Translations under genes and position numbers: made by a program
Assembly (NCBI GenBank): GCA_007695115.1
Contig: REEK01000184.1
Span: 1-38,575, forward strand
Length of the DNA: 38,575 nucleotides
Direction of reading: 5' to 3'
Source: Sphaerobacteraceae bacterium
GTDB taxonomy: Bacteria > Chloroflexota > Chloroflexia > Thermomicrobiales > Thermomicrobiaceae
The notes under the pieces: model-generated
Seen by the model: the letters and a program-made list of their open reading frames with translations, nothing else
Told to the model about the DNA's origin: nothing
Databases searched by the model: none
Shown: piece by piece, positions 1,610-38,031 of the stretch
Position numbering within the stretch: position 1 is the stretch's first letter
How the letters are laid out: each line of letters starts with the position of its first letter

Positions 1610-4030
1610 ATGAGCAACCCCGGGGAGTGGGATTCTCACAGGAATCTGCCATACCCGTTGTCGTCACTGGTGGGTCGGGACGACGACCTGGAGTGGGTTT
1701 GCGCACGTTTGCGGGATCCCGGGATTCGACTTCTGACGTTGACCGGGCCGGCCGGGGTCGGAAAGACTCGATTGGGCCTCGAAGCAGCAGCAAGGTTACG
1801 TGGCGATTTCTCCGGCGGGGTCTGGTTCGTTGAGCTGGCGTCGGTCAGCGAACCTGGACTGGTCGCATCTACGATCGCGTCGGTGTTCAGAGCTCGTGAG
1901 CAGCAAGGGACTACAGCGATTCGCACGCTGTCAGAGGTGCTGCAAGCTGGCCCGGTGCTTCTGGTTCTCGACAATTGCGAACACCTCCTCGGCCCGTGCG
2001 CTCAGATCGTTTCGCAACTCCTTCAGAGAAGCCCCGAATTGAAGATTTTGACAACCAGTCGGCAGCGTCTGGGAATCTCAGGAGAGATGTCCTGGCAAGT
2101 CCAGACGCTTGCCCGGCCCGCCTCGCTTGCCACGCCATCAACTGCTCAACTGCAGGCGTTCCCGGCGGTCCGACTGTTTGTCGACCGTGCCCGCGCGTTC
2201 CAGGATAGTTTCGCCATCAACGATGAGAACAGTTCCGCAATCGCCCAGGTCTGCACTCAACTGGACGGAATTCCATTGGCGATCGAGCTGGCGGCTTCCT
2301 GGATACCGGTGCTCAGCGTCGAGCAGATTGCCGAAAGGCTGGATGACAGGTTCAGATTGCTCGAGAACAGGAACCTCCAGTCTGAACCAAGGCAGGCGAC
2401 TCTCCGTAAGGCTATCGATTGGAGCTACGGTCTTCTGACAGAGCAGGAACAGATCCTGTTTTATCGGCTGTCTGGCTTCGCGGACGGTTACACACTGGAC
2501 TCGCTCGAGGCGGTCTGCGCTGACAACGAAATCAGGCGGGGCGATGTTATGCGATTGCTCGCCAACCTGATCGAAAAGTCGCTGGTTTCTGCCGAACCGA
2601 CCCCGGACGAACGCCAGCGATACCGGATGCTTGAAACACTCCGAGCCTATGCCAGAGAGCGGCTCGTCCTGAGTGGGGAGGCGCAGTGGCTATATCGGCG
2701 GCATGCCGAGCACTACCTGACCCTGGCCGAGGAAGCCGAGGCATCGCTATGGGGGCCAGATCAGACAACCTGGCTGCGGCGCCTGAGCAGGGAGCACGAG
2801 AATTTTCGAGTGGCTCTGCGCTGGTCTGCTGGGCGAGGTGAAGCGGAGATCGCACAGCGCCTGGGAGCGGCTCTCGGACAGTTCTGGCGCGTACGCGGTC
2901 ACTTGAGCGAAGGGCGGCGCTGGCTAGAGCAGGCGCTGGAATGGGAGTCCGGTGCGTCGACTATGATCCGGGCCCGGGCGCTGGAGGCGTGCGCTAATCT
3001 GTGCCGAGATCAGGGAGATCTGGACGCGGCCGAGCGATTCTATCGCCAGGGACTCGACTTGCGTGTGCGAAATGGTGACACTCAGGCGATACCGCGCCTG
3101 CTGACCAGCCTGAGTATGGTCGCCCAGTTTCGTGACGATCATGTGCTGGCCATCAATCTGCAGGAGCAGTGCCTCACACTTCATCGCGAACAGGGGGATC
3201 AGCAAGGCATTGCCGTGTCACTGATGACACTCGGCACGCTGGCCCAGCTTCAGGGGGATTCCGAACGTGCTATCCAGCGATATCAGGAAACACTGGCGTT
3301 GTTCCGCGATCTTGATGACAAGCATGGGACCGCCGCCACGCTGAGCAATCTCGGTACGCTGTCCCATCGCCGGGGTGATTACCAGGCAGCTAACCACTAC
3401 TATGGAGATGCGCTGACACTGTTCCGCGAGATCGGCGATTTTCATGAGATTGCGGCATGTCTGAGCAACCTCGGCGGCGTAGCCCGGGACATAGCCGATC
3501 CGAACCGGGCGCGAGCATTCTACAGTGATAGCTTGCAACTGTTTAACGCTCTGTGCGATACGGCCGGCATTGCCGCACTGCTGCTCTGTCTTGGGTCGCT
3601 GAGTGCTCAGCAAGGTGATGCCGGGCGCGCCACGCGCCTGTTTGCCGCGGTCGAGACGCTCCATACCTCCAACGATATTGTTGAACGAGCTTCCCTGGGA
3701 CCAGCTCATCATCGGACGATAGCTGCCTTGCGCGAGCAACTGGGCCAGGTTCGATTCGATCGGATCTGGGCTGAAGGCAGAGCATGGTCTCTTGACGATG
3801 CAGTTACCCATGCGCTCGAAAACCCGACAACTCCCACAGGCGCCCTGATACCGCTGACTCATCGTGAACATGAGGTTGCCCGGTGCATCGCTCAGGGGCA
3901 GACTAACCGGGAGATAGCCGCCGCCCTCTATATCTCCGAGCGAACCGTTGACACTCATGTGGAGCACATCCTTGCCAAACTTGGCGTGCGCTCACGTGTT
4001 CAGGTAGCCGCCTGGATAGCTACCTCTTGA
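1610..4030 (+). CDS. STAND ATPase / TPR / LuxR-type transcriptional regulator
   Basis: An 806-residue signal-integrating transcription factor related to the MalT/AfsR class. The N-terminus carries an NTPase with Walker A GPAGVGKT (residues 46-53), Walker B VLLVLDNCEHLL (116-127) and the GIPLAIELAASW motif typical of NB-ARC/STAND proteins. Roughly residues 450-680 hold about six tetratricopeptide repeats (for example LGTLAQLQGDSERAIQRYQE). The last ~60 residues form a LuxR/GerE helix-turn-helix (LTHREHEVARCIAQGQTNRE, then SERTVDTHVEHILAKLGV). ATG at 1610 is preceded by AGGAGAGG 11 bp upstream. STAND regulators usually oligomerise on inducer and ATP binding. The inducer is unknown; the DUF4242 gene downstream is the obvious first target. 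Confidence 0.93.
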   Translation: MSNPGEWDSHRNLPYPLSSLVGRDDDLEWVCARLRDPGIRLLTLTGPAGVGKTRLGLEAAARLRGDFSGGVWFVELASVSEPGLVASTIASVFRAREQQGTTAIRTLSEVLQAGPVLLVLDNCEHLLGPCAQIVSQLLQRSPELKILTTSRQRLGISGEMSWQVQTLARPASLATPSTAQLQAFPAVRLFVDRARAFQDSFAINDENSSAIAQVCTQLDGIPLAIELAASWIPVLSVEQIAERLDDRFRLLENRNLQSEPRQATLRKAIDWSYGLLTEQEQILFYRLSGFADGYTLDSLEAVCADNEIRRGDVMRLLANLIEKSLVSAEPTPDERQRYRMLETLRAYARERLVLSGEAQWLYRRHAEHYLTLAEEAEASLWGPDQTTWLRRLSREHENFRVALRWSAGRGEAEIAQRLGAALGQFWRVRGHLSEGRRWLEQALEWESGASTMIRARALEACANLCRDQGDLDAAERFYRQGLDLRVRNGDTQAIPRLLTSLSMVAQFRDDHVLAINLQEQCLTLHREQGDQQGIAVSLMTLGTLAQLQGDSERAIQRYQETLALFRDLDDKHGTAATLSNLGTLSHRRGDYQAANHYYGDALTLFREIGDFHEIAACLSNLGGVARDIADPNRARAFYSDSLQLFNALCDTAGIAALLLCLGSLSAQQGDAGRATRLFAAVETLHTSNDIVERASLGPAHHRTIAALREQLGQVRFDRIWAEGRAWSLDDAVTHALENPTTPTGALIPLTHREHEVARCIAQGQTNREIAAALYISERTVDTHVEHILAKLGVRSRVQVAAWIATS

Positions 4031-4194
4031 TCGGGCGCGACATGACAGGTACCGGCGCTATGTCACCCCGCCCAGGCTTAGAAATACGTACCCGTATCCG
4101 CCTTTTGCCCGATACCGCCTGGTTTCTCCGGAACCTATAGTAGACGCATCGAGCTCGGTGAGGCATATCGATTTATCAGAAAGAGGGATTGATC

Positions 4195-4470
4195 GTGGCG
4201 AAGTATCTGGTCGAACGTTACCTTCCTGGCATCACGCCCGAAGAGCTTGCTGCCGCAGCTGGCAGCGCCAAGCGCACGACGTCGGAAATGTCACAGAACG
4301 GAACAACAATCCGCTATTTGCGATCAACGTTCATCCCGGGTGAAGAGAAGTGTTTCTGCCTTTTCGAGGGGCCATCGGCGGAGGCGGTCAAGACAGCTAA
4401 CGAGCGAGCACAGATTCCATATGAGCGGATCGTCGAGGCGATGCACTTGTCTTCAGAGGACGTCGACTGA
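4195..4470 (+). CDS. DUF4242 (SCO4226-like) small protein
   Basis: A small cytoplasmic protein of the DUF4242 family (PF14026). It begins with the family hallmark KYLVERYLPG and contains the conserved FCLFEGPS segment. The streptomycete relative SCO4226 is a ferredoxin-fold nickel-binding protein, but metal binding here is untested. I chose GTG at 4195, giving MAKYLVERYLPG, because AGAGGG at 4182-4187 sits 7 bp upstream; a TTG at 4189 would add two residues. The gene follows the LuxR-type regulator by 164 bp on the same strand. DUF4242 genes often sit next to such regulators, so it may be a target. Confidence 0.8.
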   Translation: MAKYLVERYLPGITPEELAAAAGSAKRTTSEMSQNGTTIRYLRSTFIPGEEKCFCLFEGPSAEAVKTANERAQIPYERIVEAMHLSSEDVD

Positions 4471-5921: not shown

Positions 5922-6131
5922 CTATCCAGCTGCTCGTCGCTTGTAAGTCACCATCATCATCCCGGCCGGACGATACATCATCACACCGATCAATGGCAGC
6001 CCGCAGCCGGGACGGGAGTCCTGGTAGTCGATGCTGGCCACTTCCCAGCCATCCTGCTCGAACTGGGCGCGCTCTCGATCGAAGGCGAGCTGATTGTTGG
6101 CCGGGTAGGCTCGCGTGGTTGTCTCTTCCAT
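5922..6131 (-). CDS. Small hypothetical protein in the sigma/anti-sigma operon
   Basis: A 69-residue soluble protein starting MEETTTRAYPANNQLAFDRE and ending in a basic tail, KRRAAG. The start ATG (complement of 6129-6131) has GAGAGGTG upstream; an upstream-extended frame lacks such a signal. It lies 58 bp downstream of the anti-sigma gene on the same strand, so it may be the third gene of that operon. The central segment DGWEVASIDYQDSRPGCG suggests a compact alpha/beta fold. No family is recognised and no function can be assigned. Confidence 0.65.
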   Translation of the reverse strand: MEETTTRAYPANNQLAFDRERAQFEQDGWEVASIDYQDSRPGCGLPLIGVMMYRPAGMMMVTYKRRAAG

Positions 6132-6189
6132 CTGCGGTTCACCTCTCTGTTCGATGCGCCGGGGGTAGACGCTGGCTTCCCGGCGCGGA

Positions 6190-6963
6190 TCAATTGAGAA
6201 ATGAACGCACGATCGCTTCCGCCTGTTCCGGGGTGAGCCAGGCGGGCGTGTCCGCTTCCAGAGCAATCAGCTGCAGATGGTGAGCCACACCGTCTGATGC
6301 CCACCGGATTTCCCGAATCGCTTCCGGGTCATCTACCTGAATCGAGATCCCGTCGGCCGTCTGGATCTGATCGACACTCGGAGGCGGTTCGACGCCATCA
6401 TCCGGAAACTGCGTGACCTGGAGGGTGAGATCATCGAACTCGGTCGACGTGTAGGTCAGCGTGGTGATCCCGGCCTGCGTTTCGTGATCGCTGAGCTGGA
6501 ACGTCTCGCCGATCGTCTCCGGAATCTCCCCGTCCTGAATTCCCGCTGGAGCCTGTCCGTTGTCCACCCACTCGATCGACTGGTCCGAGGTTGCCCGCTG
6601 AAATGGCTGGGGGATTGCTTCGATGAATTGTCCGAGCCCAGTCCAGAGGAGAAATGCGGCAATGACAAACATACCCCCGACCGCTGTCAGGCTGGCAGCT
6701 TGCGTCCATCCTCGATGCGGGCGGTCCGTCTGCTGATCGGCTTCCTCATAGAGTCGGATCAGCAGGTCATGCCGGGCATGGTTTTCTGGCTCTGGCATCG
6801 TCTCCCGCAGCACAAGCATGGTGGACTCGGCATCGGCCAGCCGTTGCTGGCAGGTTGGGCAACCGGGCACATGCGCTTCGAGTTGCTTCATGCGCCCCTC
6901 GGGGAGCTCTTCTTCCGTGAAGGCAATCAGTTCATCCGGGGCTACATCGCAAGCTGGGTTCAT
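6190..6963 (-). CDS. Membrane-anchored zinc-finger anti-sigma factor
   Basis: A 257-residue protein with the ZAS-type (zf-HC2) motif HVPGCPTC near residues 31-38, the H-x3-C-x2-C pattern that holds ECF sigma factors inactive. One transmembrane segment follows (about residues 88-110, AASLTAVGGMFVIAAFLLW). The C-terminal ~140 residues would be extracytoplasmic and could sense an envelope signal. The start overlaps the stop of the upstream sigma gene by 4 bp (ATGA, 6960-6963), the usual coupling of an ECF sigma with its cognate anti-sigma. The signal is unknown. Confidence 0.9.
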   Translation of the reverse strand: MNPACDVAPDELIAFTEEELPEGRMKQLEAHVPGCPTCQQRLADAESTMLVLRETMPEPENHARHDLLIRLYEEADQQTDRPHRGWTQAASLTAVGGMFVIAAFLLWTGLGQFIEAIPQPFQRATSDQSIEWVDNGQAPAGIQDGEIPETIGETFQLSDHETQAGITTLTYTSTEFDDLTLQVTQFPDDGVEPPPSVDQIQTADGISIQVDDPEAIREIRWASDGVAHHLQLIALEADTPAWLTPEQAEAIVRSFLN

Positions 6964-19707: not shown

Positions 19708-21168
19708 CTAGTTCACCTGTGATGCCAGCGAGGCTGACGAGAGCGGAAGGCGGACGACGATCCGGGTGCCGCCCCGGTCGGGGAACTCGGCCAGCACATC
19801 GCCACCGTGCAGCTCGACGATCTCCCGACTGATATAGAGGCCGAGGCCCATCCCACCGCTGGAAGGTCCCTGCTTGTCAGCCTGATAGAAGCGATCGAAG
19901 ATCCGTGGCCTGTTTGCCAGTGGAATTCCGGGCCCCTGATCCTGCACGCACAGTTCGATGCAATCGCCATCTGGCCAGTCCAGTGAGATCGTGACTTCGC
20001 TATCCGGCGGGCTGTACTTGACGGCGTTGTTGACCAGGTTGATGATCACCTGCTCCATCCGGATAGGATCGATCTCCACCACCATTGTCTCCGGTGTTTG
20101 CACGGTGATGGTGTGACTGTTGGCGCCGATGTAGGCCGAGTCGATCGATTCGTGGATCAGGTCCACCATGTCCACCGGCTCTCGATCGATCGAGAGCTTG
20201 CCTCCCTTAAGGCGGGAAACGTCCAGAAGTTGTCCCACAAGACGGGAGAGTTTGTCGGCCTGAGTGACCACTGATTCCATCAGTTTGTCGAGCTTCGCTG
20301 GTTCATCAGTCCCGGCTGTTCTGAGCCGTTTCAGTGCCAGCTGCGCTCGACCGATGAGCGATGTCAGCGGTGTTTTCAGCTCATGTGCCGCAATCGAGAC
20401 GAATTCTTCTCGAATCTGGAGCGCAGATTCGGCGTCCTGACGGGCGGAACGCTCGGCATCGAGGGCATCGCTCAATCTCTGCTGATCCCGAGCGCGTTCT
20501 GCAAGCTCGTGCTCCAGCTGAGTCGCCTTCTGCTGAAGCAGGGCAACTTCGCGAAATCGTTCGGATTCCGAGGTCAGCGACGAATAGCTTTCAGCGGGAA
20601 ATACCGCACTGTGCTGCTCGCAGATGTCCCGCAGCATACTTGCGGTCTCCTGATCCCGGAATGTTTTGATTGGATAGGCGCAGCAGAGCGAGAAATCCTG
20701 CTGTTCCAGCAAATCGTTCCAGAGATGTTCCAGATCCACCGTCGCGGATGCGTAATTGAGCTCTGCAGTCAATGCCACCATCTCACCGAAAATGCGGACA
20801 GATGACCACTCGGCTCGAATTTGCGCGATCAGTGAGCCAAAGAGGTTCCGGAACAGTTCCGGATCTGGCTGACCGGCCACCATAAACTGCGGCATGATCT
20901 TCGAGGTATCCAGAGGAGTGAACTGGCCCGCCGCCTTCTGAGCGGAGACGTCCAGCCCGTTGCTTTGCAGTATCTGTTCGATCATGGTCAGGTGATCACC
21001 AGTGGCGACGACAATACTGGCTTCATTGTTTTCGAGCGTGGTTGTCACGAACTGTGACAGCATGAGCAGCAGGTAATCTTCAGACTCATAGAACTGCACG
21101 AGATGGCGATACGCCGGACTGGCGTGCCAGGGACCCTGATGAAATGATTGCTCAACATCCGAATTCAT
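19708..21168 (-). CDS. Sensor histidine kinase with N-terminal MEDS domain
   Basis: A 486-residue soluble histidine kinase. Residues ~18-175 match the MEDS (DcmR-type sensory, PF14417) domain: HLVQFYESEDYLLLMLSQFV, RIFGEMVALTAE, FSLCCAYPIKTF. A coiled coil (~205-255) leads into HisKA with the phosphoacceptor His262 in HELKTPLTSL. The ATPase domain has NLVNNAVKYS, DQGPGIP and GGMGLGLYISREIVELHGG. There is no transmembrane segment. ATG at 21168 is chosen because GGAGG lies 7 bp upstream; the preceding ATG (21171) is only 4 bp away. No response regulator is adjacent, so its partner is elsewhere. MEDS domains are thought to sense hydrocarbon-derived or small organic signals, which is only a hint. 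Confidence 0.92.
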   Translation of the reverse strand: MNSDVEQSFHQGPWHASPAYRHLVQFYESEDYLLLMLSQFVTTTLENNEASIVVATGDHLTMIEQILQSNGLDVSAQKAAGQFTPLDTSKIMPQFMVAGQPDPELFRNLFGSLIAQIRAEWSSVRIFGEMVALTAELNYASATVDLEHLWNDLLEQQDFSLCCAYPIKTFRDQETASMLRDICEQHSAVFPAESYSSLTSESERFREVALLQQKATQLEHELAERARDQQRLSDALDAERSARQDAESALQIREEFVSIAAHELKTPLTSLIGRAQLALKRLRTAGTDEPAKLDKLMESVVTQADKLSRLVGQLLDVSRLKGGKLSIDREPVDMVDLIHESIDSAYIGANSHTITVQTPETMVVEIDPIRMEQVIINLVNNAVKYSPPDSEVTISLDWPDGDCIELCVQDQGPGIPLANRPRIFDRFYQADKQGPSSGGMGLGLYISREIVELHGGDVLAEFPDRGGTRIVVRLPLSSASLASQVN

Positions 21169-21283
21169 CATCTTGCCTCCATCAGAACTGCCGGTTTCCT
21201 GAACCAGCCACTAAGGCGGGTATAGCAAACAGCGTTCCGTAGCGTGAGGCTATTAAGTTAAGTAAGGTCGGCTGGATCGGCGA

Positions 21284-29975: not shown

Positions 29976-30015
29976 AAAAGAGCCTGACGGCTATTCCGCC
30001 GGAGCAGGCTCTTTT
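29976..30015 (-). terminator. Terminator overlapping the pdxT stop codon
   Basis: AAAAGAGCCTG (29976-29986) pairs perfectly with CAGGCTCTTTT (30005-30015). On the minus strand the stem starts inside the last pdxT codons, the stop codon is in the loop, and the stem ends in TTTT. It is a compact intrinsic terminator. Confidence 0.8.
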
Positions 30016-30605
30016 GCCGAGGAAACAACGAGATTGACGAACCAGCTGTGCAGGCGGCGGTCGCCGGTCAGTTCCGGGTGGAACGCGGTGGCCACCAGAT
30101 TGTTCTGGCGCACGGCGATGATCTTGCCGTCGGACAGCGTGCCGAGTACTTCGACATCCGGTCCGGTGCGGGAGACGATCGGTGCCCGGATGAAGACCGT
30201 CGGCATTGGTTCACCGGAGATCGCTGGCATCTCCAGATCAGCTTCGAAGCTATCGAGCTGAGTGCCGAACGCATTGCGCTTGACGGTGATGTCCATCAGT
30301 TCCAGGAGTGGTTGATGCTGGGCACGAGTGCTCTGATCGACATCGGTTGCCAGCAGGATCATTCCGGCGCAGGTTCCCCAGACTGGTTTGCCATCGCTCG
30401 CCATCTCTGTGATCGGCTCACGAAGCTCGTACCAGTCGATCAACCGGCCGATCGTTGTGCTTTCGCCACCCGGGATGATCAGTGCTTCCACCCCGTCGAG
30501 GTCCTCCGGCAGCCGAATCTCAACGGCTTCGGCACCGATTTCCCGGAGCCGGTGGACATGCTCGATAAATGCTCCCTGTAGTGCCAGAACGCCGATTTTC
30601 GGCAT
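29991..30605 (-). CDS. pdxT: Pyridoxal 5'-phosphate synthase glutaminase subunit PdxT
   Basis: A 204-residue class I glutaminase that releases ammonia from glutamine and passes it to PdxS for the one-step synthesis of pyridoxal 5'-phosphate. The start MPKIGVLALQGAFIEH, GGEST (46-50), the nucleophile Cys79 in GTCAGM, and the His176/Glu178 pair in FHPEL are all present. The ATG has GAGGAG upstream. It follows pdxS by about 158 bp, a gap that contains repeat-like hairpins. The final codons lie inside a terminator hairpin. The enzyme is cytoplasmic and forms a 12:12 complex with PdxS. Confidence 0.96.
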   Translation of the reverse strand: MPKIGVLALQGAFIEHVHRLREIGAEAVEIRLPEDLDGVEALIIPGGESTTIGRLIDWYELREPITEMASDGKPVWGTCAGMILLATDVDQSTRAQHQPLLELMDITVKRNAFGTQLDSFEADLEMPAISGEPMPTVFIRAPIVSRTGPDVEVLGTLSDGKIIAVRQNNLVATAFHPELTGDRRLHSWFVNLVVSSAKEPAPAE

Positions 30606-30671
30606 AGGTGAATCTCCTCAGTGCTCTCACCATCAGCGCTGGACGGAATCGACGTTTCGCGAACGTCTGAG

Positions 30672-30733
30672 ATCTCTCGACAAGCTCGAGATGACATCAA
30701 TTCCGCCCCCCTCTCCCAGATTTGGGAGAGGGG
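30672..30733. repeat. REP-like palindromic sequences between pdxS and pdxT
   Basis: CCCCTCTCCCA (30708-30718) pairs perfectly with TGGGAGAGGGG (30723-30733) over a 4-nt loop, followed by GCCGGGGGTGAGGGC. Just to its left, ATCTCTCGACAAGCTCGAGAT (30672-30692) forms a shorter imperfect hairpin. Both resemble short intergenic palindromes that occur in many copies in some genomes. Copy number here cannot be judged from one window. Confidence 0.55.
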
Positions 30734-30763
30734 CCGGGGGTGAGGGCCTACTTACAAAACCCT

Positions 30764-31645
30764 CTACCAGCCGCGGGCGGCCAGCAGTTCCTTCTCTTCG
30801 ATCTGACCAATCTCCAGGCCGCGCATCGGCTCGCCGAGGCCACGGCTGATCTCGGCCAGCTTGGCCGGGTTCTGGTAGTTGGTGGTTGCTTCCACGATCG
30901 CCTTGGCACGGACGGCCGGATCTTCTGACTTGAAGATACCGGAGCCTACGAAGACACCCTCGGCACCGAGCTGCATTACCAGCGCGGCATCGGCCGGGGT
31001 GGCGATACCACCGGCACAGAAGACCACCACCGGCAGCTTGCCGGTTTCGTGGATCTCACGGACCAGGTTGTACGGCGCACCCAGATCACGGGCGGCGCTC
31101 ATCAGCTCTTCCTTCGGCATCGCCTGAATTTCCTTGATGCCGCCGTTGATCTGGCGCAGGTGCAGGACTGCCTCGACGATGTTGCCGGTTCCGGCTTCGC
31201 CCTTGGAGCGAATCATCGCGGCACCTTCACCGATACGTCGAAGCGCCTCGCCCAGATCACGGGCACCACAGACGAACGGAATGTTGAAGTCTTCCTTGGC
31301 AATGTGGAAGAAGTTGTCGGCCGGAGTCAGCACTTCGCTCTCGTCGACATAGTCGACACCGAGCGCCTCGAGGATTTGCGCCTCGACGAAGTGGCCGATA
31401 CGCGCCTTGGCCATGACCGGAATAGTAACCGCGTCCTTGATCTGAACGATCAGTTCCGGATCACTCATTCGGGCGACACCACCATCGCGGCGGATGTCGG
31501 ACGGTACGCGCTCCAGCGCCATAACGGCACAGGCGCCGGCTTCTTCGGCGATTTTGGCCTGCTCAGCGTTGACGACGTCCATAATGACGCCACCCTTGAG
31601 CATCTGTGCCAGGCCAGCTTTGGTCTTGAAGGTCGATTTCTCCAT
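30764..31645 (-). CDS. pdxS: Pyridoxal 5'-phosphate synthase subunit PdxS
   Basis: A 293-residue TIM-barrel synthase that builds pyridoxal 5'-phosphate from ribose 5-phosphate, glyceraldehyde 3-phosphate and ammonia. Diagnostic parts are Asp23 in [24 protein letters not shown], the Schiff-base Lys80 in [11 protein letters not shown], Lys148 in [12 protein letters not shown], and [16 protein letters not shown]. The ATG has AGGAGAAAGGA upstream. It follows the MocR-type regulator gene by 75 bp on the same strand, and pdxT lies downstream. Confidence 0.97.
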
Positions 31646-31720
31646 AACGTGTGTCCTTTCTCCTGTAATGTTCGTCCGACAGGCAACAGCTTCCTGCCGG
31701 GTTGAAACCAGTTTTGTGAT

Positions 31721-33232
31721 TCAGACGATCGGGGTTACGGCCTCTCTGGCCTTCCGGTCGTCCGTTCCGCGGAGTGATCGCAATGATTCGATCGCTCCAG
31801 CCAGCCGGCGGATACCTTCGTCGATCTCCTCCGCTGCAGGCAACGTGAAATTCAGACGCAGGGTCGATTCACCCTCATCGTCGACGTGGAAGCTCTCGCC
31901 AGGCGCCACCGAGACGCCAAATCGTGCCGCTTCCGGCAACAGATCGCGAGCCCGCAACCCATCGGTAAGGCGTGCCCAGATGTAGAACCCGCCGTGTGGT
32001 CGGTTCCACTGTAGCAGGCCGGTACAGTGTCGCTGCAGAGCCTCGAGCATGAGATCGCGTCGATACGGATAGATCGACTGCAACTCCTCGACATGCTCTC
32101 GCAGGTGACCGCGATCCAGCAGTGCCCAGACCGCCCACTGTGCCAGTGGGTTGGTGTCCAGGTCAACAATCTGCTTCATCAGGGCCAGTCGCTTCAGAAT
32201 CGGCTGCGGTCCAGCGATCCAGCCAATCCGGAATCCCGGAAACAGGATCTTGGAAAAGGTGCTGAGATGAATGACGATCCCGCGCTGATCCATCGCATGC
32301 AGGGTCGGCAGCGCCGGCCCCTCGTAGCGAAGCACGCTGTACGGATCATCCTCGATAATCGGAATCCGGTAGCGTTCGGCCAGATCGAGCAGGCGTCGGC
32401 GCCGATCCAGGTTCATCGTGCCACCGCTCGGGTTCTGGAAACTCGGCAGCGTGTAGATCAACTTCGGCCGTCGTCTGGCCAGCAGATCTTCCAGCAGTCC
32501 GACCCGCATGCCGTTGCTATCGACCGGAATCGGTAGCAATCGCGCTCCGGCTGCCCGAAAGACCTGCAACGCCCCGAGATAGGTCGGTGATTCGATCACC
32601 ACCAGATCATCGGGATCGAGCAGCGTCCGGGCCAGCAGGTAGAGTCCCTGTTGCGAACCGGCTACCACCAGCACGTTCTCCGGATCGACGGGTTTACCAT
32701 CTCCGGCCATCCAGTCACCGAGCGAGCTCCGGAGCGGCCAGTAGCCCTCTGTGGGACAATGCTGGAGAAGCGCCTGCCCATCGGTATGCAGCGCCTCATC
32801 GAGCAAACCACGGATCAGCTCGATCGGGTAGAGTTCGGGAGATGGAATGCCGGTGGCCAGAGAAATGACATCCGGACGGGACGAGATCATCGTGGTATCC
32901 CGGAGCAACGGATCGTTCATGACCTCGGTGGTGGAGGTGAACAACTGACTCCACGGAATCTGCTGATGATTACTGGACTGGCCCGTATCCGGATCGGGAT
33001 CGGCGACAACGGTTCCACGCCCGACGTGACCTTCCACCAGCCCGTCGGCCGCCAGTTCACGGTAGGCGGTGACGATGGTGGTTCGGTTGACGCCGAGCAT
33101 CGCTGCCAGGCGTCGTTCAGGCGGGAGTTTGCTCCCCACGGCGAGATCGCCAGTGTGGATCCGCTCCCGGATCTGGTTGCTGATTTGCAAATAGAGCGGA
33201 AGATCGCTCTCGCGGTCCAGTTCGACCAGCAT
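31721..33232 (-). CDS. MocR/PdxR-type transcriptional regulator (GntR HTH + aminotransferase fold)
   Basis: A 503-residue regulator. Residues ~1-75 form a GntR winged helix (LPLYLQISNQIRERIHTGDL; SKLPPERRLAAMLGVNRTTI). The rest is a fold-type I aminotransferase domain with FQNPSG (265-270), IIEDDPYSV (292-300) and the PLP lysine Lys328 in STFSKILFPGFRIGW. These proteins bind PLP and control B6 or amino-acid genes. Next to pdxS it is probably the PdxR-like sensor of PLP, but GabR- or TauR-like roles are not excluded. I chose ATG at 33232 with GGAGGG upstream; ATG at 33244 is possible. It likely also acts on the divergent pucR-type gene. Confidence 0.88.
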   Translation of the reverse strand: MLVELDRESDLPLYLQISNQIRERIHTGDLAVGSKLPPERRLAAMLGVNRTTIVTAYRELAADGLVEGHVGRGTVVADPDPDTGQSSNHQQIPWSQLFTSTTEVMNDPLLRDTTMISSRPDVISLATGIPSPELYPIELIRGLLDEALHTDGQALLQHCPTEGYWPLRSSLGDWMAGDGKPVDPENVLVVAGSQQGLYLLARTLLDPDDLVVIESPTYLGALQVFRAAGARLLPIPVDSNGMRVGLLEDLLARRRPKLIYTLPSFQNPSGGTMNLDRRRRLLDLAERYRIPIIEDDPYSVLRYEGPALPTLHAMDQRGIVIHLSTFSKILFPGFRIGWIAGPQPILKRLALMKQIVDLDTNPLAQWAVWALLDRGHLREHVEELQSIYPYRRDLMLEALQRHCTGLLQWNRPHGGFYIWARLTDGLRARDLLPEAARFGVSVAPGESFHVDDEGESTLRLNFTLPAAEEIDEGIRRLAGAIESLRSLRGTDDRKAREAVTPIV

Positions 33233-33362: not shown

Positions 33363-34910
33363 ATGCCTGAGATCACACTCCGGGATCTCTGCCGGTGGGA
33401 TCGCCGTATGCAGCTGGTTCCCCCCACGACACTCAGCCGGGACGCGGCGTACGACCGCGGGGTGTCATGGGTCGTCTCCGTCCGGACTTCTCCGCCATTG
33501 CTGCCACCACTGCGAGGCGATGAGCTGGTGGTGATTCCGCGCCGCGTGCTGGAACAGATCGAAGATGCCGCGATGATCACTCGCGACCAGCTTCTCAAGA
33601 CGCTGGTGGAGCATGGGATATCGGCAATCCTCACCGAGCCAGCCTTCAGTGAAGACCCGATCGAGCATCTGCCGATGATCACCATGCCGGCGCCGTTTCC
33701 TCAGGATGCCGAGGGCACACTGAATCGGCTTCTCACCGAACGCCGGGCCGAGCTCTACCGTCTGGGAAACGATCTCTCCCGCCGGTTGTCCGAGGCCGCA
33801 ATGGATCCGCGCGGGGTGGAGGGAATTCTCGACGTCGTTGCCGAGTTCTCCGGCCATCCAGTCATGCTTCAGGATACGGACGGCCAGTTGATTGCCAGTG
33901 GTGGAACCCACGACCCTGACCCTGCTCCGATCGATGCTCTGGATCTGGCCCGGACGTCAGGGCAATCCGTGACCGTGGTTGATGACCACGGCAGCGAGCG
34001 ATTGGTCGTCCCGATGCTGGCTCCGACCGGGAGTGCCTATCTCAGTGTGGTGGCGCCGGTTGGCAGGCTAACCGAGGTCGATCGACTGGTACTGACACAG
34101 ACTGCCGGAACCGCGGCGATCGTGCTGGCTCAGGGAAATGCCGCTGGCGCCCGGAGTGCCCGGCAACGGGCGATTGCCGAGTTGCTGGAAGGTCGCCTGG
34201 CATCAGAGACCGCCGCGATTGCCCGCGCCAGGGGTCTGGGGATCGAGGCAGTCCGCCCGGTCCGGGTCGGAGTCATCGATGCCGGTGAAGATCTGGAGCG
34301 GGCCCATCGGATCGCGGATCAGCTCCTCGGCGGGCTGAGCGGTGTGGAACGAGCCGAGCTCGATGGCGAGATCGCCTTTCTGGTGACTGACGCGGATCGG
34401 GAGACGCTGGAGCAACGGCTCCACCGGATGGAAGCACGCGATGGTTCTCAATCTTTGTGTGTTGCAATCGGCTCGGTGGTACCGGTCATCACCGGTGCAT
34501 CTTCGAGCCTCGATCAGGCCCGGTTTGCCCGGGGACTGGTGCGGGCTGGCGTGTTGACCGGTCCGGTCAGCTGGTTTGATTCACTGGAGGATATCGGGGT
34601 GTTCGGCTTGCTCTATCACCTCTGGGGAAATCCGGCTGTGGAACAGTTCCGTCAGGATGTCCTCGGCGCGCTCGAGGCGTATGACGATCGCCGGGGAACC
34701 GAGCTGATTCCGACGCTTCGCGCCTATCTCTCGAGCGGCGGATCGATCGCTGAAGCATCGGCAATGCTCAATGTTCACCGTAATACGCTCTCCTATCGAG
34801 CTGCCCGTATCGGCGAACTGAGTGGTCGGAACCTGAACAATCCGAACGATCGCCTGCTGATGCGCGTGGCGCTTCTCTGTCTCGATCTGCAGCAGGTTTC
34901 CAGAAGCTGA
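33363..34910 (+). CDS. PucR family transcriptional regulator
   Basis: A 515-residue regulator with three parts. The N-terminal PucR domain (PF07905, about 1-120) contains GVSWVVSVRTSPPLLPPLRG, then DELVVIPRRVLEQ. A central sensor-like region (about 150-260) and a GGDEF-like module (about 280-400) follow. The C-terminal HTH_30 (about 440-505) contains LRAYLSSGGSIAEASAMLNV, then HRNTLSYRAARIGELSG. ATG at 33363 has GGAGGTGG just upstream. PucR proteins control purine, nitrogen or amine use depending on the organism. Its target here is not evident, and it is divergent from the MocR-type regulator. Confidence 0.9.
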   Translation: MPEITLRDLCRWDRRMQLVPPTTLSRDAAYDRGVSWVVSVRTSPPLLPPLRGDELVVIPRRVLEQIEDAAMITRDQLLKTLVEHGISAILTEPAFSEDPIEHLPMITMPAPFPQDAEGTLNRLLTERRAELYRLGNDLSRRLSEAAMDPRGVEGILDVVAEFSGHPVMLQDTDGQLIASGGTHDPDPAPIDALDLARTSGQSVTVVDDHGSERLVVPMLAPTGSAYLSVVAPVGRLTEVDRLVLTQTAGTAAIVLAQGNAAGARSARQRAIAELLEGRLASETAAIARARGLGIEAVRPVRVGVIDAGEDLERAHRIADQLLGGLSGVERAELDGEIAFLVTDADRETLEQRLHRMEARDGSQSLCVAIGSVVPVITGASSSLDQARFARGLVRAGVLTGPVSWFDSLEDIGVFGLLYHLWGNPAVEQFRQDVLGALEAYDDRRGTELIPTLRAYLSSGGSIAEASAMLNVHRNTLSYRAARIGELSGRNLNNPNDRLLMRVALLCLDLQQVSRS

Positions 34911-34921
34911 GCGATGCCTGC

Positions 34922-35335
34922 CTACCCGAGGTAGTCCCTGGCGGCACGCCGGAGGATGACGCGTTCCATCGAAACCGTCTGGACTTCATCGAGAGCGATC
35001 CGGCGGCGACCGAACAGCCCGTACCAGGTACCCACCAGTATTGCGCCCGCACCAAGTGGCTCGCCGGCGGTGGTGTCCGCCCCGTAGCGATGTTCCGGAG
35101 TCTGAGTGGCCGGGCCGAAGTTGCCGACCTCACGCGTTGGCGCAGGGCCGAGTGCCTCGCCGTCGTATGCGCGTATCTCCGGCGTAAACGGTGGATTATC
35201 CGGGATGTTGCTGGCGGCTTCCGGCCCACGAATCACCCGAATGATCGTGCCGACTTTCTCGCCATCCAGCCCGAAAACATCCATACTGCGCCGGATTTCG
35301 GGAGAGCGAAACCCGTGGGTCTGCGGTGACGTCAT
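34922..35335 (-). CDS. PRC-barrel/DUF2171-like protein
   Basis: A 137-residue soluble protein. The first part, MDVFGLDGEKVGTIIRV (residues ~18-34), and the last, RRRIALDEVQTVSMERVIL, match the two halves of a PRC-barrel/DUF2171-like fold. Between them lies a ~70-residue Gly/Pro-rich insert that is not usual for the family. The start overlaps the stop of the upstream DUF4870 gene by 4 bp (35332-35335), so it is in the same operon. It converges on the pucR-type gene with 11 bp between stops. Its function is not known. Confidence 0.6.
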   Translation of the reverse strand: MTSPQTHGFRSPEIRRSMDVFGLDGEKVGTIIRVIRGPEAASNIPDNPPFTPEIRAYDGEALGPAPTREVGNFGPATQTPEHRYGADTTAGEPLGAGAILVGTWYGLFGRRRIALDEVQTVSMERVILRRAARDYLG

Positions 35336-35841
35336 GGACGATGCTCCCCACGGACATCCGGCATCGGGCTGATCATCTCGGCCAGCAGGCCTACAAGGGG
35401 AATCCGGAACGGCTGGGCCTGGTAGGAACGCACCGCGGCGTAGATCGCATAGGCATAGAACGCAAACGTGACGACCATGATGCTGACAACGAAGACCATG
35501 ATGCCGACCGTCATTGCGATGCCGAAGGCAACCTCACCGGTGCCGGAGCTGGCGGCAAATGCCAGTCCGAACGCGCCGAAGGCAAAGGCCATCACGATCA
35601 GGATAACGATGACGGTCAGCACCATCACCAGGAGCTGAAAGATAACCGCCTGACCAGCCTGGAACGCGCCATAGGGCTGATTTTTCCGGGTATGCAGGTA
35701 GATCCAGAGTCCAACTGCGACCAGAAACCCGATGGATGACACGAAGACTGAGAGGTGTGAGATGCAGGCCAGCGTGCGTTCATCCTGGGTCGGCCGGTAG
35801 AACTCGTCCGCAGTGTGATCGGCTCGATGTTCAGTGCTCAT
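35332..35841 (-). CDS. DUF4870 (Tic20-like) membrane protein
   Basis: A 169-residue membrane protein of the DUF4870 family (PF09685). It has the recognisable LACISHLSVFVSSIGFLVAV, then KNQPYGAFQAGQAVIFQLLV. There are about three to four hydrophobic segments (residues ~28-48, 65-95, 105-135). The family is widespread and largely uncharacterised, with a distant likeness to Tic20. It is the third gene of the minus-strand operon that begins with the HNH-like pair, and it is translationally coupled to the PRC-barrel-like gene. Confidence 0.82.
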   Translation of the reverse strand: MSTEHRADHTADEFYRPTQDERTLACISHLSVFVSSIGFLVAVGLWIYLHTRKNQPYGAFQAGQAVIFQLLVMVLTVIVILIVMAFAFGAFGLAFAASSGTGEVAFGIAMTVGIMVFVVSIMVVTFAFYAYAIYAAVRSYQAQPFRIPLVGLLAEMISPMPDVRGEHRP

Positions 35842-35916
35842 GAGTCAGCAACGCTTTCAGCGAACCGTGGTTGATCGTCTATTACACTGAGTATGACGTA
35901 TCTGTACCCGGGTTTG

Positions 35917-36285
35917 TCACACCCAGCGGTCGTCGTCGCGCGAGCCGAGATCGGGCTGATCCTTCTGCAACGTTTTCCACTGATCGAAGTAACAGGCGAC
36001 ACAGGTAGCTTCCAGATCATCGGCGGTGATCCGCTCAGCGCTATCCCCGCGTGGGGTTTCTCCGACGAAATCGACCCCGACGCGCTCCGTGGCACCACAT
36101 CGCTGGCACGTCTGGTTATCGCGTTCGAGCGCTGCCTGCACGATTCCGCCGTCGAGGCTCTCCAGTTGTCGGATGCGAACATCTTTGTCGAGCACATCCC
36201 TGCGGATGCGGGTGGCATAGCGCACCATCACCCAGAGCAGGATCAGCAGCGGTATAAAGACGATCGCGCCGATCAGGAGTTCCAT
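35917..36285 (-). CDS. Membrane-anchored HNH-like zinc protein, catalytic His lost (paralogue 2)
   Basis: A 122-residue protein. Residues 1-22 form one hydrophobic anchor (MELLIGAIVFIPLLILLW) followed by a charged helix (28-55). The soluble part opens with ERDNQTCQRCGA, the hallmark start of HNH-fold zinc domains, with Cys60/Cys63 and Cys95/Cys98 as metal ligands. At the position where nucleases have the catalytic H-H or D-H pair it reads VDFV (71-74). The usual nuclease activity is therefore not expected. ATG at 36285 has GGAG upstream. It lies 35 bp downstream of a paralogue with the same plan, and DUF4870 follows. A structural, redox or sensing role is possible. Confidence 0.7.
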   Translation of the reverse strand: MELLIGAIVFIPLLILLWVMVRYATRIRRDVLDKDVRIRQLESLDGGIVQAALERDNQTCQRCGATERVGVDFVGETPRGDSAERITADDLEATCVACYFDQWKTLQKDQPDLGSRDDDRWV

Positions 36286-36320
36286 CTGATCTGCTCCGTT
36301 CCCGGTGAAATGCCGTGCGT

Positions 36321-36671
36321 TCAGTCGATGATACCTGACTGCCGGGTAATTGCTGTACAGCGAGCGCAACGAGTGATGAGCTGGCGCAGCTGCACCTGAT
36401 CATCGGCTGGCGGGTCATCCACGAAGTCGACCAGTAGATCGCGACTGTCGCCGCAACGCTGGCAGGTGTAGCTGTCTCGCTCGTAGACACGAAAGCGTAA
36501 CTCCGACGGTATATCGTTGAGCAACTGTACCCGCCGCGCATCGGCCGATACCCGCGCGCGCACTCGTGTGGTGTGACGCGAGATCAACACCATGATGACG
36601 GTGGCGATCAGAATCATCCCCACCGTAGACGGTATCCAGCTGGAATCGACCATTGCCTGCACCGTGTCCAT
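36321..36671 (-). CDS. Membrane-anchored HNH-like zinc protein, catalytic His lost (paralogue 1)
   Basis: A 116-residue protein and the first gene of a minus-strand operon. A hydrophobic segment spans residues ~13-31 (IPSTVGMILIATVIMVLIS), followed by a basic helix. The zinc domain begins RFRVYERDSYTCQRCGD, closely matching HNH nucleases, with Cys70/Cys73 and Cys102/Cys105. VDFV (81-84) replaces the catalytic His pair at the same spacing as in the next gene. The exact start is unclear: ATG at 36671 or 36653, neither with a strong ribosome binding site. It is divergent from the MFS gene. Confidence 0.7.
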   Translation of the reverse strand: MDTVQAMVDSSWIPSTVGMILIATVIMVLISRHTTRVRARVSADARRVQLLNDIPSELRFRVYERDSYTCQRCGDSRDLLVDFVDDPPADDQVQLRQLITRCARCTAITRQSGIID

Positions 36672-36741
36672 CCTGTTGATGGTAGCCTATAGGGTCGAAA
36701 TAAGAGCGCAATGACGCGTTCGGCAGGAAGAGGCACCACAA

Positions 36742-38031
36742 ATTTCCACGCACGATGAGACTCCGGACGGGCGTCCACGCCGAGGTCGACGCCTGCAGCC
36801 GTTCTATGGCTGGTGGATCGCCGGAGTTGCCGCACTGGTAGCGTTTGCTTCGGGACCTGGTCAGTCCTACGGCTTCTCCGTATTCATTGACCCCCTCATC
36901 GAGGACACCGGATTCTCTCGTACCGAAATTTCGGCCCTGTATGCGGTCGGTACCGGCCTGAGCGCGATCATGGTCTTCCTGGTCGGTCGACTGGCAGACC
37001 GCTATGGCGCCCGGGTGATGCTGATGTTTGCCGTCACCGGCCTCGGACTGGCCTGTTTCGGTATGGCGTTCGCGGTTGGCCCGATCGCCTTCTTCTTCGC
37101 GTTCGCCTCGTTGCGCGCATTCGGGCAGGGATCGCTGCCGGTCAACGGTACATTGCTGGTGGCCCAGTGGTTCGTGAAATACCGCGGCCGGGCGATGGCC
37201 GTCATGGGCATCGGTGGTGCTGCGTCCAACGCAGCCTTCCCCACGATCTCTCAGCAGTTGATCGAGATGTTCGGCTGGCGCGAGACCTACATGATTCTCG
37301 GTGCCTTCGTCTGGATACTGATCATCCCGCTGGCGATCTTCGTGGTGCGCAATCGTCCGGAAGATCGTGGCGAGAACCCGGATGGTGCCGACGAGTTGCC
37401 AGCCTCGGAGCGGAGAGCTGCCGAATCGACTGATGCCCCGTTGAGTGACAACGCACTGAAAACGCTCTTCTTCTGGGTGACATCGCTCTCGATCGGCGTG
37501 CCGTCGATGGTCGGCACGGCCTACGTCTTTCACCAGATCTCGATCCTCACCGATTTCGGCCTGTCGGCCAGCCTGGCGGCCGGACTGTTCGTTCCATTTG
37601 CGATCACCGCAACGATCTCCAGCTTCATCGGTGGCTATCTGGTGGATCGCTACGATCCGATCCGGGTCTATACCGGAAATGCGATGCTGTTCATTGTTGC
37701 CACGATCGTTCTGGTTTTCGTCACCAACCCGTTTCTCGGGTTCGTCTATGCCGGGCTGATGGGGCTGTTCCAGGGAATTCAGATGATTATCATGAACTCC
37801 ACCTGGGCTTATTTTTACGGGCGGCAAGGACTGGGCAAGATTCAGGGTGCCGGATCGATGACCAACATCGCCTATTCGGCGATCGGCCCACTGCCACTGG
37901 CGGCCCTCTACGGAGTGTTCGGAGACTTTCGCCCGGCGATTCTGATTCTCGGGACACTGATGATCGTCTCGGCGATTTCGATCAATCTGGTTCGATCGCG
38001 GGCGCCAATCGTAGAATCCTATGAAGATTGA
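36742..38031 (+). CDS. MFS transporter with a non-canonical start codon
   Basis: A major facilitator protein of about 429 residues, of the same general class as the MFS gene at 10127. The first TM begins PFYGWWIAGVAALVAFASG (from ~36799); the loop 2-3 motif is VGRLADRYGARVM and the second half carries GGYLVDRYDP. The first in-frame ATG is at 36970, after TM1, so it cannot be the true start. The frame is open from 36715 and contains no ATG, GTG or TTG before 36970. I propose ATT at 36742, with AGGAAGAGG 8 bp upstream, or CTG at 36793, with GAGGT 6 bp upstream. A sequencing or assembly error cannot be excluded. The substrate is unknown. Confidence 0.8.
   Translation: MSTHDETPDGRPRRGRRLQPFYGWWIAGVAALVAFASGPGQSYGFSVFIDPLIEDTGFSRTEISALYAVGTGLSAIMVFLVGRLADRYGARVMLMFAVTGLGLACFGMAFAVGPIAFFFAFASLRAFGQGSLPVNGTLLVAQWFVKYRGRAMAVMGIGGAASNAAFPTISQQLIEMFGWRETYMILGAFVWILIIPLAIFVVRNRPEDRGENPDGADELPASERRAAESTDAPLSDNALKTLFFWVTSLSIGVPSMVGTAYVFHQISILTDFGLSASLAAGLFVPFAITATISSFIGGYLVDRYDPIRVYTGNAMLFIVATIVLVFVTNPFLGFVYAGLMGLFQGIQMIIMNSTWAYFYGRQGLGKIQGAGSMTNIAYSAIGPLPLAALYGVFGDFRPAILILGTLMIVSAISINLVRSRAPIVESYED

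Follow-up and report, generated by a model that had tools for sequence, protein, structure and literature searches.

Two adjacent genes, here named B and A, encode paralogous proteins in which a single N-terminal hydrophobic helix precedes a domain homologous to HNH endonucleases, and in both the catalytic histidine has been replaced. The loss is conserved, both genes are under constraint, and their order is maintained among related genomes. With the zinc fold of HNH enzymes but without the cutting histidine, the two proteins most likely serve as docking pieces rather than as nucleases, and we judge the chances slightly better than even that A and B are a membrane-tethered pair of pseudo-HNH adaptors, similar in kind to Legionella DotN, that act as docking modules within a membrane complex. 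The genes lie on contig REEK01000184.1 of Sphaerobacteraceae bacterium (GCA_007695115.1; lineage Thermomicrobiaceae, Chloroflexota), positions 1 to 38,575 of which (forward strand) are called the window. The host is an uncultured Thermomicrobiaceae lineage; sister MAGs carry CSSed16 isolate names, which we take to denote soda-lake sediment. The features of the pair are as follows.

36321..36671, minus strand: gene B, predicted membrane-anchored pseudo-HNH protein of 116 aa (P0002); dN/dS 0.15-0.39
36579..36635, minus strand: B residues 13-31, predicted transmembrane helix, N-out/C-in; KD19 2.28, net +5 in the next 20 residues
36333..36509, minus strand: B residues 55-113, Cys4 HNH-fold domain (profiles, alignment, model)
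36423..36425, minus strand: B codon Phe83, at the HNH catalytic His position (alignments)
35917..36285, minus strand: gene A, predicted membrane-anchored pseudo-HNH protein of 122 aa (P0001), paralogue of B; dN/dS 0.16-0.35
36223..36279, minus strand: A residues 3-21, predicted transmembrane helix; KD19 3.00, net +4 in the next 20 residues
35968..36153, minus strand: A residues 45-106, Cys4 HNH-fold domain without histidine (profiles, alignment)
36067..36069, minus strand: A codon Phe73, at the HNH catalytic His position (alignments)

Gene A lies 35 bases downstream of B on the same (minus) strand; its start was taken as the ATG at 36285, as the listed TTG at 36369 would overlap B. The two proteins share 31% identity over 80 aa (BLASTP, E 3e-11). 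Each begins with one hydrophobic helix (best 19-residue Kyte-Doolittle window 3.0 in A and 2.3 in B), followed by an arginine-rich linker that is predicted to be helical. The net charge of +4 (A) or +5 (B) in the 20 residues after this helix predicts, by the positive-inside rule, that the zinc domain is cytosolic, and we infer membrane insertion, topology and zinc occupancy for both proteins. The domain contains the motif ERD..TC..C (in its fuller form ERD..TCQRCG), carries VDF with its phenylalanine exactly 13 residues past the first cysteine (C60/F73 in A, C70/F83 in B), and contains a second CxxC (C95/C98 in A, C102/C105 in B). The preliminary description of tandem paralogues, each with an N-terminal hydrophobic segment, a linker and an HNH-type domain, was thus right in its main points; of the VDFV that it placed at equal spacing, VDF holds in both copies while the fourth residue varies between V, I, T and A.

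Sequence comparison identifies the A and B domains as HNH homologues. The family available for comparison was a thin sample, seven proteins from four related genomes of one genus, two of them near-identical. In a single hhalign comparison this family matched ten intact HNH proteins with a probability of 98.5 (E 1.9e-15), and an HMM built from intact HNH proteins alone matched all seven members at 23-46 bits. PHROGs HNH families matched B at E 8e-6 and A at E 1e-4, and the B core aligned to the closest canonical sequences without gaps over the first zinc pair and the DH region. In a tree of 74 rows (the seven members and 67 other HNH rows), A and B formed one group with support of 99/100, and this grouping persisted when the His column was masked (SH-aLRT 81). 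Searched at E<=10, Pfam HNH matched none of A, B and four orthologues, so that the gathering score was not reached, and NCBIfam assigned neither A nor B to a family. A structural model of B (pLDDT 79; HNH core block means 86-97) comprised a long transmembrane-plus-linker helix (residues 12-52) and a core matching HNH structures, a shape partly imported because the underlying alignment contained intact HNH sequences; for A, an AlphaFold2 model based on nothing but the seven family sequences was of low quality (pLDDT 52). The profile comparisons and the tree support the domain assignment made from the letters alone.

The same anatomy could describe zinc- or redox-responsive membrane sensors, whose Cys4 site would react to zinc or thiol stress and signal through the long helix to the products of the neighbouring DUF4870 and PRC-like genes. 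Four invariant cysteines in a predicted cytosolic domain would suit such a role, as would the continuous transmembrane-linker helix in the B model, and the N-terminus of A (residues 3-44) weakly resembles the envelope-stress membrane protein PspB (TIGR02976; 16.4 bits, E 0.008, below the cut-off of 51.7 bits). However, conservation of the Cys4 site can be explained without sensing, since members of this HNH subfamily ordinarily use it as a structural zinc site. Neither protein is fused to a regulator or output domain, and the likeness to PspB may be generic for a transmembrane segment plus helix. We regard sensing as unlikely, though it is the strongest of the alternatives.

Among 76 HNH frames in the fetched loci, the aligned catalytic position was occupied by His in 69/69 frames outside the family and by Phe in 7/7 family members. 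The soluble domains of A and B from the window contain no histidine at all, and no His column is conserved within the seven-protein family. The aspartate preceding the His position is retained. Beyond the histidine, the domains have lost the loop's GG, the Asn that follows the second zinc CxxC, and the basic CN..K tail; only the A protein of genome G004 keeps the HNH Asn. The earlier proposal that the loss is ancestral and conserved is supported, and none of the seven members carries an intact histidine at the VDF site. The simplest reading of the tree is that the histidine was lost before A and B duplicated, and we infer that neither protein has nuclease activity.

Loss of cutting could still leave A and B as membrane-tethered binders that retain DNA or RNA close to the membrane. 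Binding of DNA is normal for HNH folds, and both the HNH ancestry and the retained zinc Cys4 core fit this idea. Against it, the domain cores are acidic, with a net charge of -1 to -7 compared with 0 to +7 in ten intact HNH domains, and the GG loop and basic Asn/Lys tail are gone, leaving nucleic-acid binding improbable and a little behind sensing. Of the reuses earlier suggested for the zinc fold, binding, if of nucleic acid, is disfavoured by the acidic domain, whereas assembly, in the manner of DotN, is the best reading. That A and B are active nucleases with unusual catalytic residues is very improbable: the Asp of the DH motif remains, together with one Asn in the G004 A protein alone, but there is no conserved His column and the window domains lack histidine altogether. 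A role as defence nucleases was ruled out because the histidine is missing; PADLOC returned no defence match for A or B.

Both genes were found in three genomes and A alone in a fourth (G004), all of one genus. Identity of the orthologues to A and B was 94-95% in G002 and 46-54% in G001, and in G004 the locus is contiguous between the MFS and DUF4870 genes, with A present and B absent. The statement that the pair is kept in duplicate thus applies to three genomes, G004 having just A. No match was found in G003, the fifth member of the genus, an 84%-complete MAG. Beyond the genus, no orthologue was detected in 158 genomes of the class, 400 genomes of the phylum, the GTDB contig collection or viral contigs; these searches returned just ordinary His-intact HNH proteins and a His-intact clostridial protein with one transmembrane segment, and a plasmid search yielded one ordinary HNH protein.

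The orthologues in G002, G001 and G004 keep the transmembrane segment, ERD..TC..C, VDF and the second CxxC, and 17 columns are invariant in the seven proteins, including both CxxC pairs and V-D-F. The dN/dS of A and B was 0.15-0.39, similar to or somewhat higher than that of neighbouring genes (0.11-0.27), with dS near saturation in the wider comparisons; these values indicate that both genes are under constraint. The narrow distribution within one genus might suggest decaying or spurious genes without function, the least probable reading of all given frames that stay intact at 46-54% identity, the dN/dS values and the invariant columns. Spurious open reading frames were ruled out by the purifying selection.

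Two further genes follow the pair on the same strand.

35332..35841, minus strand: DUF4870 membrane protein of 169 aa, the gene after A (Pfam PF09685, E 3.7e-8)
34922..35335, minus strand: DUF2171/PRC-like protein of 137 aa (Pfam DUF2171, E 0.0085, below cut-off)

The start of the DUF2171/PRC-like gene overlaps the DUF4870 stop (ATGA). DUF4870 is the next gene in G000, G001, G002 and G004 alike; the order B-A-DUF4870-PRC is kept across the genus, and G004 has A-DUF4870-PRC. The association of A and B with these two genes, noted at the outset, is accordingly one of co-orientation and of an order kept in related genomes. The locus is flanked on the left by a convergent PucR-type regulator gene and on the right by a divergent gene for an MFS transporter; a scan of 34700-37000 revealed no sigma-70-like promoter. 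Copies of the DUF4870 protein share 55-98% identity inside the genus, but only about 29-42% with those elsewhere in the family and order. Elsewhere in the window are a histidine kinase with an N-terminal MEDS sensory domain (19708-21171) and a PLP synthase pair, SNZ and SNO, adjoining a class I/II aminotransferase gene (29991-33100).

Homologues of the PRC-like protein are found widely in the family and in other orders of the class as well, and A/B-like genes were absent from the PRC-like and DUF4870 homologue loci of other genera. In G005 a PRC-like gene remains convergent with the PucR gene, but A, B and DUF4870 are absent. A PRC-like gene converging on a PucR-type gene lies at positions 3843-4442 of locus L107, from another Thermomicrobiaceae genus. 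The persistence of this arrangement in another genus, with homologues in other orders, indicates that the PRC-like gene predates the insertion of A, B and DUF4870. Together with the wide spread of the PRC-like gene, the G005 locus suggests that the pair is a genus-level addition, and the locus that received it seems to be older.

The docking reading draws on the comparison with DotN (IcmJ). In a profile search of the PDB, DotN came first (E 8e-5), above every active HNH structure, and it was also the best phmmer match of B (E 0.005); it occupied Foldseek ranks 1-7, with weak E-values (0.02). VIA-align superposed the B model on DotN with Z 8.1 and rmsd 3.4 over 71 residues, near ties with active HNH structures at Z 6-7.4, and a Z of around 8 is the tool's own noise level. 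When intact sequences were added to the profile, an active HNH protein scored above DotN. The aligned stretch of DotN (5x1h) reads RDRYTCQFCG...QDIV...CCFC, and QDIV in place of VDFV indicates the same kind of histidine loss as in A and B. Against the DotN model NF038221, B scored 22.1 bits (E 8.9e-5), short of the curated cut-off of 100 bits, and the model scored the ordinary HNH protein of this genome above B, so the resemblance to DotN is not specific.

To our knowledge, DotN has no transmembrane segment of its own in the solved complex. It shares with A and B an HNH-derived, cysteine-rich fold with CxxC pairs, a retained Asp, a lost His and no GG loop, and its place in a membrane complex is on the cytosolic side (PMC7280309), where A and B are also predicted to be. 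There it is a multi-interface scaffold of the Legionella type IVB coupling complex, with large protein interfaces to DotM, DotZ and the tail of DotL (PMC7280309). DotN is, however, about 200 aa long and encoded in the dot/icm locus, whereas A and B are 116-122 aa, tandem and putatively anchored by a transmembrane helix, and they score below the DotN family cut-off. No type IV secretion genes were seen beside the pair, and neither DotL nor DotM was among its Pfam-scanned neighbours. The likeness is one of analogy, not of membership.

The adaptor reading implies the following course. In an ancestral HNH endonuclease, Phe would have replaced the catalytic His, and the GG loop, the post-zinc Asn and the basic tail would have disappeared; the zinc-stabilised module that remained would serve protein-protein contacts, as DotN does. 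An ancestral duplication would then have given B and A, in each of which a single N-terminal helix (N-out/C-in) and a helical linker would hold the Zn-Cys4 domain at the cytosolic face of the membrane. The two probably act jointly, or next to one another, with the products of the DUF4870 and DUF2171/PRC-like genes as parts of a complex in the cell envelope, although the scaffold role and the partners are our guess by analogy. A more tentative proposal, appreciably less probable than the adaptor reading itself, is that the genus-specific A and B, with these two products, form an undescribed envelope complex and are, besides DotN, another case in which an inactive HNH fold was independently recruited as the scaffold of a membrane complex. 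A literature search for HNH together with DUF4870 gave nothing. A and B add to DotN a compact natural case of a histidine-stripped nuclease fold kept under selection, with the dead fold here joined to a predicted membrane anchor and duplicated. Should a partner be found, the pair would provide a test of whether HNH folds have been repeatedly recruited as protein-docking modules at membranes; for annotation pipelines, it cautions against naming such proteins nucleases.

Intact HNH endonucleases (PF01844/PF14279; the phage GVE2 HNH protein, 5h0m; Chloroflexota HNH proteins) share with A and B the ERD..TCQxCG motif, the spacing of the DH motif, the second CxxC and the fold. Unlike these enzymes, A and B have no catalytic His, GG or CN..K tail, are acidic rather than basic, carry an additional predicted transmembrane helix and have no Pfam HNH match. 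A HNH protein of roughly 160 aa with one transmembrane segment was observed in rumen Clostridia MAGs (Saccharofermentans, Ruminococcaceae).

L071, 492-968: one-TM HNH protein, Clostridia
L072 and L073, about 5953 to 6429: one-TM HNH protein, Clostridia

The claim that no system of this arrangement had been described is not supported, given DotN as a structurally solved His-less HNH-fold scaffold at a membrane and these clostridial proteins. The latter have the same order of N-terminal transmembrane segment, linker and HNH domain as A and B. They differ in keeping the catalytic DH, the Asn and CN..KKG, in matching Pfam HNH (E 1.5e-11), in occurring as one copy at the match and in falling outside the A/B group in the tree. 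By its sequence, the clostridial protein is a candidate membrane-anchored active HNH nuclease.
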